Shown piece after piece: positions 8,431 through 19,413 of a stretch of 27,613 nucleotides of DNA. How positions within the stretch are numbered: position 1 is the first letter of the stretch; each line of letters opens with the position of its first letter. The translations under genes and the position numbers were made by a program. The stretch comes from a virus: IMG/VR virus record IMGVR_UViG_3300017746_000109, positions 1 through 27,613 of that record, one strand, 5' to 3'. The notes beneath the pieces were generated by a model that was not told where the DNA came from, searched no databases, and was given only the letters and a program-made list of their open reading frames with translations.

Positions 8431-8946
8431 ATGGCAAAAGCTAAATATACAAGCTCTAAAGGTACGGCTATGTGGCCGTGGTTAGCAAAACCTGATACTA
8501 GGTTTGATGCTGAAGGCAAGTATAAAACTGATCTTTTAGTTAAAAAAGAAGATGCACAAGAATTTGTTGATATGGCTAAACAAATTTTTATAGAAGAGTT
8601 TGGTGAGAAATCACTAGCAAAAGCAAAGTGGCCATTTATGAATGACGATGATGCTGGTGGCATAAAAATACGTGCTAAGTCTAGCAAAAAACCTACATTA
8701 TTTGATGCAAAAGGTAACGTCATAAAAACAGATTTACCTGTTGGTAATGGTTCAACTATTAAATTAAGTGGAGTCATGGGAACATACTCTGCAGGAGGTA
8801 ACATAGGAGTTACTGCATACCTTAATGCTGTTCAAATAATAGATCTTGTTGAATTTGGAGGTTCTACATTTGAAGAGGAAGATGGCTATGTTCATGAAGC
8901 TACGGAGAGTGCAAGTGACGCAACGGAAGAGTTCAACGACTTTTAA
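8431..8946 (+). CDS. ssDNA-binding protein, T7 gp2.5-like
   Basis: The 171-residue protein fits phage ssDNA-binding proteins of the gp2.5/DUF2815 type. It has a beta-rich OB-fold core (residues about 10-145, for example TAMWPWLAKPDTRFDAEGKYKTDLLV and VGNGSTIKLSGVMGTYSAGGNIGVTAYLNAVQI). A long acidic tail follows and ends in an aromatic residue, EEFNDF. In T7 that tail contacts DNA polymerase and primase-helicase, and the final Phe is essential. It coats ssDNA during replication and recombination. The next gene, endonuclease I, begins inside its acidic-tail coding region. Confidence 0.9.
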   Translation: MAKAKYTSSKGTAMWPWLAKPDTRFDAEGKYKTDLLVKKEDAQEFVDMAKQIFIEEFGEKSLAKAKWPFMNDDDAGGIKIRAKSSKKPTLFDAKGNVIKTDLPVGNGSTIKLSGVMGTYSAGGNIGVTAYLNAVQIIDLVEFGGSTFEEEDGYVHEATESASDATEEFNDF

Positions 8947-9313
8947 GAATATAAAGTTTGTTAATAACTATCGTAGTGGACTTGAAGCACAAGTAGCAGA
9001 ACAACTAGATAAAACAGGTATAAAATATGAGTATGAAACAATTAGATTACCATACAAGCTTGATGCTAAATATATACCTGATTTTATTATAGGTGATTTA
9101 ATAGTCGAGTGTAAGGGTCGCTTTACATCTGAAGATCGCAGAAAAATGCGACTAGTAAAAGAGCAGCACCCAGACTTAGATATTAGGTTTGTGTTTTCAC
9201 GTTCATCATCAAAAATCAATAAAGGTAGTAAAACAACATATGCTGACTGGTGTCATAAATATGGTTTTCCTTTTGCTGATAAATTAATACCAGAAATATG
9301 GTTAGGAGAGTAA
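8915..9313 (+). CDS. endonuclease I, Holliday-junction resolvase (T7 gp3-like)
   Basis: From GTG 8915 the protein has 132 residues (T7 has 149). This start has GGAG seven bases upstream; an in-frame ATG at 8846 lies deep within the SSB gene. It cuts branched DNA and in T7 helps degrade host DNA and resolve replication intermediates. The PD-(D/E)XK active site is intact: the Glu of YRSGLE, the Asp of YIPDF, and Glu and Lys of VECKG. The segments EQHPDLDIRFVF and FADKLIPEIW are close to T7 gp3. The 32-base overlap with the SSB reading frame suggests coupled translation. Confidence 0.94.
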   Translation: MTQRKSSTTFKNIKFVNNYRSGLEAQVAEQLDKTGIKYEYETIRLPYKLDAKYIPDFIIGDLIVECKGRFTSEDRRKMRLVKEQHPDLDIRFVFSRSSSKINKGSKTTYADWCHKYGFPFADKLIPEIWLGE

Positions 9314-9529
9314 ATGTCTCAGAGTACTGAAATGTTAAGCCACATGAAACGTGGTAAAAGACTTACAAGATTAATTGCTTTGTATGAATACAGAGTTCAA
9401 AATATAACTGCAAGAATACGCGACTTAAGACAAGCCGGTTGGAATATAAAAACCGACAAAAAGCGTGATGCGCATAATGCAATTTATGCTGAGTATTATC
9501 TCGGCAAACCTCATAAATTAGCAAATTAA
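9314..9529 (+). CDS. small HTH_39-like DNA-binding protein
   Basis: The 71-residue protein matches the layout of the phage helix-turn-helix domain HTH_39: STEMLSHMKRGKRLTRLIALYEYRVQNITARIRDLRQAGWNI, with the typical 'ARI-xx-LR-xx-G-x-x-I' end. It then has a basic C-terminal stretch. GGAG lies five bases upstream, and the ATG follows the endonuclease stop with no gap. It is the last gene before a strong terminator. It is probably a small transcription or DNA-binding modulator of the early operon. The target is unknown. Confidence 0.72.
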   Translation: MSQSTEMLSHMKRGKRLTRLIALYEYRVQNITARIRDLRQAGWNIKTDKKRDAHNAIYAEYYLGKPHKLAN

Positions 9530-9533
9530 ATAG

Positions 9534-9557
9534 CGGGGCTTCGGCCCCGTTTTTTTT
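9534..9557 (+). terminator. strong intrinsic terminator
   Basis: CGGGGC-TTCG-GCCCCG, a GC-rich stem with a UUCG tetraloop, is followed by eight T. It separates the early block (RNA polymerase to HTH_39) from the nucleotide-metabolism block. The ribosome site of the next gene begins right after the T-run, and no T7-like promoter is visible between them. Downstream genes may therefore depend on readthrough. Confidence 0.95.
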
Positions 9558-9567
9558 AGGAGTTTAT

Positions 9568-10341
9568 ATGAACGCAGATTTAGTTTGGAAACAAGCACTG
9601 CAAGATTGTGCAAAAGATTATCATTATGAAAGTAGTCCAAGAGATTTAAAAATACGTGAAAGATTAAACTACATTTATAGTGTCGACATGAAAGAACCAA
9701 TAGTTTGTAACGAAGCAAGAGACCTTAATTACAAATTTATGTTTGGTGAAGCAGCATGGATTTTAAAAGGCAGAAATGATTTAGAATACATAGAAAAATT
9801 TATGAAAAGCTATGCTAAATATAGTGACGATGGCTTTACATTAAATGGTGCTTACGGTCCTAAAATTATGGATCAATTATCATGGGCAGCAAATGAACTT
9901 AAAGAAGATAATGACTCACGACGTTGTTACATAAATATATGGCGTGAGCGTCCAGGTAAAAGTAAAGATATTCCTTGTACTACAGGTATGCAGTTTATTT
10001 TACGAGACGGCAAATTAAATGCTTTAGTTAATATGAGATCACAAGACGTAGTTTATGGAATGACATATGATATTTTTACATTTACCATGGTCGCTAAAGC
10101 TCTTCAGTTATTACTTTATTCTCATTGTAATCTTATGGTTGATATAGGTGAACTATGTGTTAGAGCAGGTTCAGCTCATATATATGAAACTGATTATGAT
10201 AAAGTTGATGAGTGGCTAAGTAATGATACATATAATAGACTTGTGCCAGAAGTACTTAAATCAGTTTTAGGTGCATCATTAACAATTAGTGATTTATCAA
10301 CAAAATTAGAAGTGTCAGGACAACACCTTGGTAATAATTGA
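9568..10341 (+). CDS. thymidylate synthase-fold enzyme, likely dCMP hydroxymethylase
   Basis: This 257-residue member of the ThyA family shows the phosphate-binding S-R-R (R118, R119), catalytic C137 in DIPCTTGMQF, R157/S158/D160 in NMRSQDVVYG, and H204/Y206 in AGSAHIYETD. E61 (GEAAW) matches ThyA E58. At the position of ThyA N177, which binds the uracil base, it has Asp (D168 in MTYDIF). In T4 dCMP hydroxymethylase the equivalent residue is Asp179, which selects cytosine. The His normally after the catalytic Cys is Thr. I infer methylene-tetrahydrofolate-dependent modification of dCMP, giving hydroxymethyl-dCMP. An unusual dUMP enzyme is the alternative. The gene overlaps a nucleotide kinase gene by 14 bases. 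Confidence 0.78.
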   Translation: MNADLVWKQALQDCAKDYHYESSPRDLKIRERLNYIYSVDMKEPIVCNEARDLNYKFMFGEAAWILKGRNDLEYIEKFMKSYAKYSDDGFTLNGAYGPKIMDQLSWAANELKEDNDSRRCYINIWRERPGKSKDIPCTTGMQFILRDGKLNALVNMRSQDVVYGMTYDIFTFTMVAKALQLLLYSHCNLMVDIGELCVRAGSAHIYETDYDKVDEWLSNDTYNRLVPEVLKSVLGASLTISDLSTKLEVSGQHLGNN

Positions 10342-10825
10342 AGGTGCTGATGGTACTGGCAAGACTACCTTAGGTCGTGCAATTGCAGATTATATAGGTG
10401 GTCAATATTTTCATTGTGGTTATAACGAAAAATGGAACATAGAAATATATCATAGGCATATAGTTCACACTGCTGCTCGGTTAGAAGAGCAAGCTAATAT
10501 TCCATGCGTTATAGATAGACTTGCACTAAGTGAAGAAATTTATGGGCATGCATATAGAGGTTGTCCTTCTTATAATACAAGTAATTTTATGAATGAAATT
10601 ATAAGAGATTATAAGCCAATGCTTATTCTTTGTAGCAATGAAAATGCAGAACAAAATCATGAGCTTAATAAACTAAACCGTACTGAAATGTTTGATACTA
10701 TTAAAGGTATTTCAGAAGCATATCAAAGACTTGTTTTAATGGGTAGGTATGGTCAATGGTTTAAATATGATTTTGATAAAAACAATATGAATAGTTTTAT
10801 TTCAAGTTATTTTAAGGAGAATTAA
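10328..10825 (+). CDS. P-loop deoxynucleoside monophosphate kinase-like protein
   Basis: The 165-residue protein begins on TTG inside the previous gene, with AGGA about eight bases upstream. The Walker A motif EGADGTGKTTL is at residues 5-15, and a DR motif (CVIDRLALSEEIYG) lies near residue 61, as in thymidylate-kinase-type enzymes. A lid-like region (NKLNRTEMF) follows. The likely reaction is ATP-dependent phosphorylation of a dNMP. The overlap with the ThyA-fold gene suggests it acts on that enzyme's product, as the T4 gp1 dNMP kinase does. Substrate preference cannot be told from sequence alone. Confidence 0.8.
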   Translation: MVIIEGADGTGKTTLGRAIADYIGGQYFHCGYNEKWNIEIYHRHIVHTAARLEEQANIPCVIDRLALSEEIYGHAYRGCPSYNTSNFMNEIIRDYKPMLILCSNENAEQNHELNKLNRTEMFDTIKGISEAYQRLVLMGRYGQWFKYDFDKNNMNSFISSYFKEN

Positions 10826-11214
10826 TGTCTACGTTAGTTGCAGATGTTTATGCTTTACAAGCAAAATATGGCTTTAATCACGAGCCTTTAAATAGTGAAA
10901 AATTAGCTCTTAGAGTTGATCAAGTTGAAGAAGAATTTGATGAGCTACTACAAGCCTTTCAAGACAAAGATGCTGAAGGTATGGTCGACGCTTTAATTGA
11001 CATAACGGTGTTTGCATTAGGCACTCTTGCTATTGCAGGTGTCGATGTTGAAGAAGCATGGCAAGAAGTACATATGGCTAACATGTCTAAAATACGCGGC
11101 ACTAAAGAGGGTCGTGACCACAGTGGTGGTTGGGATTTAATTAAACCTAAAAATTGGGAGGCACCAGATCATGCAGGAAACCTCGGCTTCATTCCAGACG
11201 CACTCGAACTGTGA
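10825..11214 (+). CDS. MazG-like all-alpha dNTP pyrophosphatase
   Basis: This 129-residue protein is coupled to the kinase by a TAATG overlap. It has the metal-binding EExxE pattern (E36, E37, E40 in VEEEFDELLQAF) and the second cluster VDALIDI (D55, D59), as in MazG/dUTPase-type all-alpha NTP pyrophosphatases. The end, GGWDLIKPKNWEAPDH, is typical of phage members. These enzymes hydrolyse (d)NTPs to NMP and pyrophosphate. T4 dCTPase (gp56) belongs to the same superfamily. Here it could remove unmodified dCTP or damaged nucleotides, or lower alarmone levels, as proposed for some MazG proteins. Confidence 0.82.
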   Translation: MSTLVADVYALQAKYGFNHEPLNSEKLALRVDQVEEEFDELLQAFQDKDAEGMVDALIDITVFALGTLAIAGVDVEEAWQEVHMANMSKIRGTKEGRDHSGGWDLIKPKNWEAPDHAGNLGFIPDALEL

Positions 11215-12766
11215 AGCATGTGGAAGCAGTGATGCAAAGGCTATCTATGACGATGGCCACGCATACTGTTTTGCATGCAATAAATACTATGGAGGAGATA
11301 GTGAAGAATCCAATAGCACGCCAACTGAGTTCTCCAAAACTGCGTCGCAAAATAACGCGGCAGCGGAAGCGGTATACGCGCAAGGTAAAATTCAGGAACT
11401 TAAAAGCCGAAATATTTCAACAGACACAGCAAGACATTTCGGCTATAAGGTTGGTAGTGGTAGACATCTTGCTCCTTATTATAAAAATGGCAAACTTATT
11501 GCGCTTAAAACGCGCGACCAAAATAAAAATTTTAGTGTTGTTGGTGAAGGTTCAAAGCTACCGCTCTTTGGACAAAACTTACAAAGCAAAGGTAAGAGAC
11601 TGTTTGTTGTAGAAGGTGAACTTGATGCACTTTCTTTATCTCAGGCATTAGGAAATAAATGGCCTGTAGTTTCTGTACCTAATGGAGCAAAGTCAGCTTC
11701 AGAAGCCATTAGAAGAGAACTAGAATACATCATGAACTTTGAGACAGTTGTCTTTATGTTTGATGAAGATAAACCAGGTCAAGAAGCAGTTGCACAATGC
11801 GCTGAATTGCTTGAACCAGGTAAAGCTCATGTAGCTAATTTACCTCTAAAAGATGCAAGTGAAATGCTTAAAAATAATAGAGTTAAAGAATTAATCAAAG
11901 CAGCATGGGACGCTCCAGTTTATAGACCTGATGGTATAGTAGCAGCAAAAGATCTTTTCCACTTAGTGGCAACGGAAGATAACGTAACAAGTATACCTTA
12001 TCCTTACGATTTTATGAATGATAAAACAAAAGGTCTTAGAAAAGGCGAACTTGTAACTATTACTGCAGGTAGTGGTATTGGCAAGTCAGCTTTTGTTCGT
12101 GAAATTGCTCATCACTTATTAACTCAAGGAGATAAAGTTGGTTTACTCTTTTTGGAAGAAAGCATTAAAAGAACTCTTACAGGCTTGGTCAGTATTGACA
12201 TTAATAAACCACTTCACATTGATAGATCCGGTGTTGAAGTTAATCAAATACGTAAGTCTTTTGACAATTTGTTCTCTAATGGGAACTGTTTTGTTTACGA
12301 TCATTTTGGCAGCGTTACTCTCGAGCATGTCCTTGCTAAGTTACGTTACTTGGCCCACGGAGAACAGTGTAATTGGATTATCATTGATCATCTTTCCATT
12401 ATGGTTAGTGGTCTTGATGTACCTGATGAGAGAAAAGCGATTGATATGATTATGACTAAACTACGTACATTTGTTGAAGAAACAGGTGTAGGTATGTTGT
12501 TAGTCTCACACTTGCGACGACCTGAAGGAAACAAAGGTTTTGAAGATGGTGCGCAGGTATCATTAAATTCTTTGCGAGGTTCACATTCAATAGGTCAGTT
12601 ATCAGATATGGTAATTGGTTTAGAACGTGATCAACAATCGCAAAGCAATGAAACTGTAGTGCGTGTAGTCAAAAATAGATTTACAGGTGCAACAGGTATG
12701 GCCGGAAGCCTCATGTATAATGAGGAAACTGGTAGATTGGAGAGTATAGATGCAGTTGGTTTTTGA
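11171..12766 (+). CDS. primase-helicase, T7 gp4-like
   Basis: The 531-residue protein (T7 has 566) unwinds the fork and makes RNA primers. The N-terminal zinc ribbon has C14, C17, C33 and C36. The TOPRIM motifs are VVEGELDALS (E148, D152) and MFDEDKPGQEA (D198, D200). The RecA-like helicase has Walker A GSGIGKSAFVREIA at 301-314 and Walker B WIIIDHLSI (D406), followed by VSHLRRP and an Arg-rich C-terminal region, VVKNRFTG. It starts with GGGAGG seven bases upstream, 44 bases inside the MazG-like gene. Full length and all motifs support activity. Confidence 0.96.
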   Translation: MQETSASFQTHSNCEACGSSDAKAIYDDGHAYCFACNKYYGGDSEESNSTPTEFSKTASQNNAAAEAVYAQGKIQELKSRNISTDTARHFGYKVGSGRHLAPYYKNGKLIALKTRDQNKNFSVVGEGSKLPLFGQNLQSKGKRLFVVEGELDALSLSQALGNKWPVVSVPNGAKSASEAIRRELEYIMNFETVVFMFDEDKPGQEAVAQCAELLEPGKAHVANLPLKDASEMLKNNRVKELIKAAWDAPVYRPDGIVAAKDLFHLVATEDNVTSIPYPYDFMNDKTKGLRKGELVTITAGSGIGKSAFVREIAHHLLTQGDKVGLLFLEESIKRTLTGLVSIDINKPLHIDRSGVEVNQIRKSFDNLFSNGNCFVYDHFGSVTLEHVLAKLRYLAHGEQCNWIIIDHLSIMVSGLDVPDERKAIDMIMTKLRTFVEETGVGMLLVSHLRRPEGNKGFEDGAQVSLNSLRGSHSIGQLSDMVIGLERDQQSQSNETVVRVVKNRFTGATGMAGSLMYNEETGRLESIDAVGF

Positions 12767-19378: not shown

Positions 19379-19413
19379 GTTGTCCATTAGGTACTAAAAT
19401 GTGCGTCTGTAAT
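19379..19413 (-). promoter_or_regulatory. leftward promoter, copy A
   Basis: On the minus strand: ATTACA, 16-base spacer with ACGC, CCTAAT, then GGACAAC. It has the same spacing as the five other copies. It lies downstream of the terminator at 19420-19442 and about 20 bases before the ribosome site of the 150-aa gene. Confidence 0.75.

Follow-up and report, generated by a model that had tools for sequence, protein, structure and literature searches.

In bacteriophage T4, the products gp56, gp42 and gp1 follow, by their gene annotations, a three-step logic in which deoxycytidine triphosphate (dCTP) is converted to the monophosphate (dCMP), dCMP to 5-hydroxymethyl-dCMP (hm-dCMP) and hm-dCMP to its diphosphate (hm-dCDP), and the 5-hydroxymethylcytosine (5hmC) is decorated by an enzyme annotated as a beta-glucosyltransferase. 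Related components are described in other phages. Phage contigs selected for modified cytosine by MetaGPA contain clusters in which a thymidylate synthase (TS), mostly with Asp at position 177, co-occurs with a PRA-PH protein (PMC8670742). In Stenotrophomonas phage AXL3, gp28-gp30 comprise a TS, a kinase and a pyrophosphatase, and of 37 restriction enzymes applied to its DNA, 35 failed to cut it; the two exceptions, TasI and Tru1I, both have A/T-only sites (PMC7504290). Here we analyze a comparable three-gene cassette at positions 9568-11214 of the IMG/VR virus record IMGVR_UViG_3300017746_000109, the whole 27,613-nt stretch of which is referred to as the window. Judging from its sequence, the first gene very probably encodes a dCMP hydroxymethylase, and the cassette as a whole probably replaces dCTP by 5-hydroxymethyl-dCTP (hm-dCTP) in phage replication.

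The cassette consists of three plus-strand open reading frames (ORFs), which the ORF list places, overlapping or abutting, as the preliminary description had reported: a predicted TS-fold dCMP hydroxymethylase of 257 amino acids (aa) starting with ATG (9568..10341; assigned through PF00303, a structural model and an alignment), a P-loop kinase of 165 aa starting with TTG (10328..10825), with a thymidylate-kinase fold according to its model and predicted to act on hm-dCMP, and a PRA-PH/MazG-type nucleoside triphosphate pyrophosphatase of 129 aa starting with ATG (10825..11214; PF01503), predicted to act as a dCTPase.

Fold and active site of the first enzyme

The 257-aa protein matches the thymidylate synthase family PF00303 with E=2.6e-22, and its AlphaFold model has a pLDDT of 87.4 and a pTM of 0.89. 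Among the matches listed, the best structural match to this model is the CMP hydroxymethylase MilA (Z 24.5, 243 residues, root mean square deviation (rmsd) 2.6), with further matches to the phage dCMP hydroxylase AfhB (9iqc, with dCMP and FAD; Z 22.2) and to ThyA (Z 21.6), which bears out the ThyA fold assigned earlier. MilA is also the best sequence match among solved proteins (E=2.4e-22), and T4 gp42 is matched by sequence with E=2.6e-10, at an identity of 31% over only 138 aligned residues. A MAFFT alignment with reference enzymes was used to compare 15 active-site positions, given here in E. coli ThyA numbering unless a window residue is named. The window enzyme is identical to T4 gp42 at all 15. 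Its active-site residues are C137, which is confirmed as the catalytic nucleophile, and D134, D168, E61, Y96, R118, R157, S158, D160, H204 and Y206. D168, the misalignment of which had been named beforehand as refuting the proposed cytosine specificity, falls on ThyA Asn177 and T4 gp42 Asp179, and D134, three residues before C137, falls on T4 Asp145, where ThyA has L143. Positions 177 and 147 are the top two residues linked to modified cytosine (PMC8670742), and Asp at -3 of the Cys (the water-activating T4 Asp145) is described as a signature of hydroxymethylation (PMC6400193). D134 is a second switch, beyond the residues cited in the preliminary description, and Asp177 (cytosine) and Asp143 (water addition) are thus two separate switches pointing in the same direction. 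D134, T138, M156 and D168, together with the AXL3 restriction data, support the earlier suggestion that the substrate is dCMP, not dUMP, and the reaction a hydroxymethylation.

Enzymes of other specificity differ at these positions. ThyA does so at four (143, 147, 165 and 177, where the window has Asp, Thr, Met and Asp), and identity with ThyA, which needs Asn177, Leu143, His147 and the C-terminal tail, was rejected; the tail has no aligned counterpart, the E. coli ThyA structural rows stopping at residue 247-248 of 264. ThyA W83 is replaced as well, by Tyr in the window and Val in T4, and W80 was dropped as a discriminator because T4 gp42 and the Votkovvirus S28C10 enzyme discussed below keep the Trp, whereas the window enzyme does not. 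SPO1 gp29, a dUMP hydroxymethylase by annotation, and the enzyme of PaMx11, the base of which is thymine-derived, keep Asp at 143 but carry Asn at three positions (147, 165 and 177), and their residue at 173 is different as well; against the Thr, Met and Asp of the window, a dUMP hydroxymethylase of the SPO1 gp29 type was rejected. MilA shares Asp at both switch positions with the window enzyme but differs in its ribose-reading Lys at 126 and Ala at 167 (MilA Lys133 and Ala176), where the window has the deoxyribose-type R118 and S158, and a CMP hydroxymethylase was rejected on this basis.

These residues bear on the possibility that the first gene encodes an ordinary TS or a dUMP hydroxymethylase and that the cassette, with a thymidylate kinase and a dUTPase, contributes to the supply of deoxythymidine triphosphate. 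The names in public records agree with such a role: in the records of HTVC200P, HTVC119P, AXL3 and PW916 the gene appears as thymidylate synthase or, in several cases, deoxyuridylate hydroxymethyltransferase, and the kinase is called thymidylate kinase. The kinase does have a thymidylate-kinase fold, and a dCMP deaminase gene lies beside the TS gene in 45 of the 70 relatives described below. However, position 177 is Asp in all 70, whereas the enzymes of SPO1 and PaMx11 have Asn. ThyX was found in two of eight records, AXL3 and PW916, and the D-type enzyme is therefore not needed for deoxythymidine monophosphate (dTMP) in these two phages. No deaminase match was obtained in the window, in the related records G001, G002 and G003 (which may be fragments), in HTVC200P or in HTVC119P. 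A role in thymidylate supply is thus considered very improbable.

A flavin-dependent 5-hydroxy-dCMP synthase (AfhB, or 5-hodCMP synthase, a homologous example of which is described in PMC13390438), giving 5-hydroxycytosine, would account for AfhB being the second-best structural relative and shares Asp at 177. The AfhB type, compared through two closely related sequences, nevertheless has Glu at 143 (-3 of the Cys), Asn at the pterin-binding position 169, Val at 173 and Phe at 209; these residues stand in the enzyme of Klebsiella phage PhiKpNIH-6, an AfhB-like protein close to 9iqc (E=1e-129). The window has D134, D160, Gly and Y206 at these sites, like the folate enzymes. The AfhB type was rejected, and synthesis of 5-hydroxycytosine seems very improbable here.

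A dCMP methylase, the type that Xanthomonas phage Xp12 reportedly uses to form 5-methyl-dCMP, would instead carry out a reductive methylation of dCMP and give DNA with 5-methylcytosine (5mC). A canonical ThyA in which Asp takes the place of Asn177 reportedly changes its substrate to dCMP and forms 5-methyl-dCMP (PMC8670742), and methylated cytosine likewise resists many restriction enzymes, so that the AXL3 data are compatible with a methylase too. Against this stand D134 at the position of ThyA L143, the replaced W83 and the unaligned ThyA tail, as well as the contrast with Votkovvirus S28C10, an uncultured member of the Autographiviridae, the TS of which looks methylase-type. Between lysozyme and primase, S28C10 (AP013540, L120:1798-3819) carries members of the same families of kinase, pyrophosphatase and deaminase, in the order pyrophosphatase-kinase-TS-deaminase (profile E 1e-36, 4e-30 and 6e-63 for kinase, pyrophosphatase and deaminase), and its TS has Asp at 177 and Val at -3 of the Cys. 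Since ThyA Asp mutants make 5-methyl-dCMP (PMC8670742), the S28C10 enzyme should be a dCMP methylase. The same combination occurs in L121, from the same genome, and in L122; L123 has Asp at 177 and Gln-Val-Leu-Pro before the Cys, with no Asp at -3. Mainly from the -3 residue, it appears that this slot is devoted to C5 chemistry of cytosine and that the first enzyme is exchanged within it. For the window enzyme itself, methylation is considered quite unlikely, and dCMP hydroxymethylation is retained as the preferred assignment.

Conservation of the cassette among relatives

Searches of viral contigs returned 16 loci with the window protein, and a broader alignment took in the best 80 of 593 confirmed matches. 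Four references (L026-L029) were set aside and 34 of 104 loci were removed because their TS proteins were more than 90% alike, leaving 70 distinct relatives, in which gene families were counted with profiles built from module proteins. Both switch positions, 143 and 177, are Asp in all 70 (in this alignment the ThyA row is offset by one and shows A in the -3 column, the residue in the sequence itself being Leu). The survey pattern spanned ThyA positions 164-173, and constancy at 165, 166, 167, 169 and 173 is therefore partly by construction; 143 and 177 lie outside the pattern. AXL3, HTVC200P and most of the distant relatives differ from the window at a single active-site position, with Gln for Arg at 127, which belongs to the 15-position comparison and not to the count over 70 relatives. 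In a tree of 76 TS proteins, the window falls in a 68-row viral group with AXL3 and HTVC200P (support 93/58, not starred), apart from ThyA and from SPO1/PaMx11; long branches lead to MilA, ThyA, the AfhB-like enzyme and T4 gp42 (in the last case a very long one), and the tree does not place the descent of the window enzyme relative to gp42.

The kinase was found in 66 of the 70 relatives, the pyrophosphatase in 53, the dCMP deaminase in 45, an S-adenosylmethionine (SAM)-dependent methyltransferase in 35 and an ORF of about 350 aa in eight. Some loci are fragmentary at their ends; in the 56 with at least 2.5 kb upstream and at least 1.5 kb downstream, the kinase was present in 55, the pyrophosphatase in 45, the deaminase in 38 and the methyltransferase in 32. 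Among the first 13 records analyzed, the corresponding numbers were 13 for the kinase, nine for PRA-PH and seven for the deaminase. In 64 of 70 loci, no more than 300 bp separate the kinase gene from the TS gene, and the two are on the same strand. In three loci (L061, L073 and L099) kinase and pyrophosphatase are fused in one ORF: in L099 it matches PF01503 (E=2e-15) and PF02223 (E=4e-8), in L073 it exceeds both cut-offs, and in L061 it exceeds that of PF01503 and is just under that of PF02223. The order TS-kinase-pyrophosphatase occurs in 12 loci, including the 39.8-kb relative G001, which shares 98% identity with the window across 14 kb; of the other arrangements, methyltransferase-pyrophosphatase-kinase-TS-deaminase is the most frequent (22 loci, with four more in which the methyltransferase is absent).

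Three cultured phages allow a closer comparison. The AXL3 TS equals the window enzyme at 14 of 15 positions, and AXL3 also has the kinase and pyrophosphatase, in the order pyrophosphatase-kinase-TS, but differs in that it additionally encodes ThyX, a methyltransferase and a dCMP deaminase. The authors of the AXL3 study interpreted gp28 as an enzyme that forms dTMP and name HTVC200P as its best match (PMC7504290). By analogy, the AXL3 restriction pattern would be the best experimental support for cytosine modification by such modules. The SAR11 (Pelagibacter) phages HTVC200P and HTVC119P encode a TS 42.6% and 41.5% identical to that of the window, with the kinase directly upstream, in a T7-like replication block; they differ in the order kinase-TS and in Gln for Arg at 127. 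Because both are cultured and carry enzyme and kinase, the proposed activity is directly testable. With the dCMP-type residue pair present in 70 TS-like genes, including those of HTVC200P, HTVC119P, AXL3 and PW916, the present annotation of these genes would be corrected.

A single match was returned by a scan of bacterial genomes, a D-type TS with 47% identity on a contig (L116) of a Mollicutes metagenome-assembled genome. The contig has one ORF matched by both the kinase and the pyrophosphatase profile, in addition to methyltransferase and deaminase matches; it may be of phage origin and have been binned with a bacterium, and it does not name the host of the window phage.

Kinase and pyrophosphatase

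The kinase matches PF02223 (thymidylate kinase) only below the cut-off (E=8e-4), and a sequence search of the PDB returned nothing convincing. Its model (pLDDT 95.3), however, has the thymidylate-kinase fold, with matches to thymidylate kinases (Z up to 14.9, 160 residues, rmsd 3.2) tied with B. subtilis YorR (Z 15.6, 150 residues, rmsd 3.1), so that its description as a P-loop, deoxynucleoside monophosphate kinase-like protein stands. Residues G6, D8, G11, K12, T14, H29, D63, R64, E69 and Y72 are invariant in 36 aligned rows. The pyrophosphatase was correctly recognized as MazG-like: it matches PF01503 (PRA-PH) with E=8.4e-12, and E36, E37, E40, D55 and D59 are identical in 54 of 54 aligned rows. 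Its PDB matches are weak, the best being the MazG-like DR2231 (E 1.6e-4).

The cassette had also been described as using exactly the three activities of T4. The activity types do fit the route from dCTP through dCMP and hm-dCMP to hm-dCDP, but the proteins are not of T4's families. The kinase has no match to PF21448 (DNMK), the family of T4 gp1, which T4 gp1 itself matches with 3e-107, and BLASTP found no similarity between the two; T4 gp1 entries are absent from the best 50 structural matches listed for the kinase model, which excludes nothing. T4 gp56 belongs to PF08761 (dUTPase_2), which the window protein does not match, and a single BLASTP comparison of the two was marginal (E=0.034); both presumably belong to a common all-alpha superfamily. 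Likewise, the MetaGPA clusters share Asp177 and PRA-PH with the window, but no word starting with "kinase" occurs in the main text of that study, and the window has no deaminase or carbamoyltransferase match (PMC8670742).

Proposed pathway and its support

In the route proposed here, the pyrophosphatase would hydrolyze dCTP to dCMP, so that ordinary dCTP is removed, and the TS-fold enzyme would transfer the methylene of methylene-tetrahydrofolate onto C5 of dCMP. C137 would attack C6, D168 would recognize and protonate N3 of the cytosine, and D134 would activate the water that yields hm-dCMP. The kinase would then form hm-dCDP, the host would supply the triphosphate step, and the phage DNA polymerase would insert hm-dCTP. 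The DNA of the window phage would thus carry a modified base, either plain 5hmC or 5hmC decorated by an enzyme not recognized here, and may thereby be protected from restriction.

Several observations weigh against this pathway. The published signature residue T4 Ser94 is Gly94 in the window and Gly in 104 of 109 aligned rows; where T4 has the Ser94-Tyr96 signature (Ser or Thr at -2 relative to the conserved Tyr), the window reads Gly94-Ala95-Tyr96. Ser94 is not universal among hydroxymethylases and may not be essential, since the corresponding residue is Ala in SPO1 gp29 and Gly in PaMx11. As this feature is absent, the enzyme is claimed to be functionally similar to gp42, and neither orthology nor certified membership of that group is asserted; the cassette would be T4-like in logic, and descent from T4 genes is no part of the claim. 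T4 gp42 structures are absent from the best 50 matches listed in both structure searches, which excludes nothing, and model confidence is lowest at D134-P136 (pLDDT <50). The AXL3 enzyme is only 37% identical to that of the window, and the AXL3 evidence is restriction resistance, which leaves the identity of the base aside. A profile search found no PRA-PH pyrophosphatase in HTVC200P or HTVC119P, and the module is therefore not always complete. Finally, the predicted specificities of the kinase for hm-dCMP and of the pyrophosphatase for dCTP are drawn from gene context only.

A refinement of the hydroxymethylation pathway is that 5hmC is further decorated, with a sugar, carbamoyl, methyl or other group, by the product of an unrecognized gene. 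T4 decorates its 5hmC, and candidate genes recur near the module. The SAM-methyltransferase (PF13489; for example L020:6650-7474 and 34 other loci) possibly acts on the modified nucleotide or base, and the protein of about 350 aa (phrog_14998; L080:2396-3454 and seven other loci), which has no Pfam match over the cut-off, is a candidate 5hmC-decorating enzyme. In the window, six of seven scanned minus-strand ORFs have no PHROGs match. On the other side, PF09198 (T4 beta-glucosyltransferase) matched none of ten records while the T4 positive control was matched, in line with the earlier statement that the window shows no glucosyltransferase, and PF16861 (carbamoyltransferase) likewise matched none of the ten. 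The 34 ORFs of G001 with Pfam matches fall into 14 families, none of them a sugar or carbamoyl transferase; a PHROGs scan of G001, in which 25 of 67 families are listed, is no proof of absence. Neither the methyltransferase nor phrog_14998 was found near the TS gene in loci of the window clade. Decoration in the window phage is thus an appreciable but minority possibility.

More broadly, and with somewhat less than even confidence, we suggest that a widespread cassette supplies C5-modified dCTP, that its first enzyme alternates within one slot of marine T7-like replicons between a hydroxymethylase (as in the window clade and HTVC200P) and a methylase (as in S28C10), and that the virions of some such phages, cultured SAR11 phages among them, contain 5hmC or 5mC DNA without further decoration. 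We know of no demonstration of either kind of undecorated DNA in T7-like phages. Among the literature matches listed, in a search scope that most subscription journals lie outside, there was no report of cytosine modification in pelagiphages or T7-like phages, and for HTVC200P, HTVC119P and Votkovvirus only the AXL3 paper was returned. Modified DNA in pelagiphages has a precedent, since thymine hypermodification has been predicted in HTVC023P-type pelagiphages (PMC9599517); as regards thymidylate and hydroxymethyl enzymes, PMC9004378 concerns ThyX only. If the proposal is true, cytosine replacement is not confined to large T4-like phages but can be a compact cassette in 40-kb phages, including SAR11-type phages. 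SAR11 genomes are small and poor in restriction systems, and given how few these systems are, the selective reason for modification in SAR11 phages would be open. Bias from modified cytosine can also arise in the library preparation and enzymatic methods applied to viromes.

Genomic context

The cassette is flanked on the left by an endonuclease I gene (8846..9313, plus strand; PF05367, E=1e-49) and a small HTH_39 ORF (9314-9529; PF14090, E=2.3e-12), with a terminator-like hairpin and T run directly 5' of it (9532..9551, plus strand; consensus match only), and on the right by a T7-type primase-helicase gene (11171..12766, plus strand) that overlaps the pyrophosphatase ORF. Pelagibacter phage Jormungand has a lysozyme gene and a small ORF, and no TS gene, between endonuclease I and primase, which makes the cassette an optional insert at this place. 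Profile searches identify the replication genes of the window as T7-like and also reveal an integrase. The label "T7-like phage" in the preliminary description therefore holds for the replication block but not for the virion genes, the portal and capsid of G001 being SU10-type. Pelagibacter phages make up 26 of the 70 phage records with DNA similarity, and the window has a GC content of 35.5%; together these only suggest SAR11 or another AT-rich marine bacterium as host. Neither tRNA nor Rfam matches were found in the window.

A 48-nt element (GTTGTCCAT...) occurs in the window in five copies and a sixth, shorter one, at 19379, 20110, 20751, 21072, 21652 and 21696. The copies sit in gaps 5' of minus-strand ORFs, most of which have no PHROGs match, and possibly represent phage promoters of an early gene block.

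In G001, the gene following the one cut by the 3' end of the window (L031:7962-13214) encodes a 1751-aa protein within the virion block. A tblastn search of 50,697 phage records (E 1e-5) gave no match to the last 605 aa of this protein, and the best PDB match is an N4-type RNAP2 (E=0.014). The protein carries a T7-type RNA polymerase domain at its end (PF00940, E=5e-10) and stretches that we take to be polymerase motifs A, B and C. G001 additionally encodes a separate 836-aa T7-like polymerase, and the 1751-aa protein is a candidate virion-packaged RNA polymerase.

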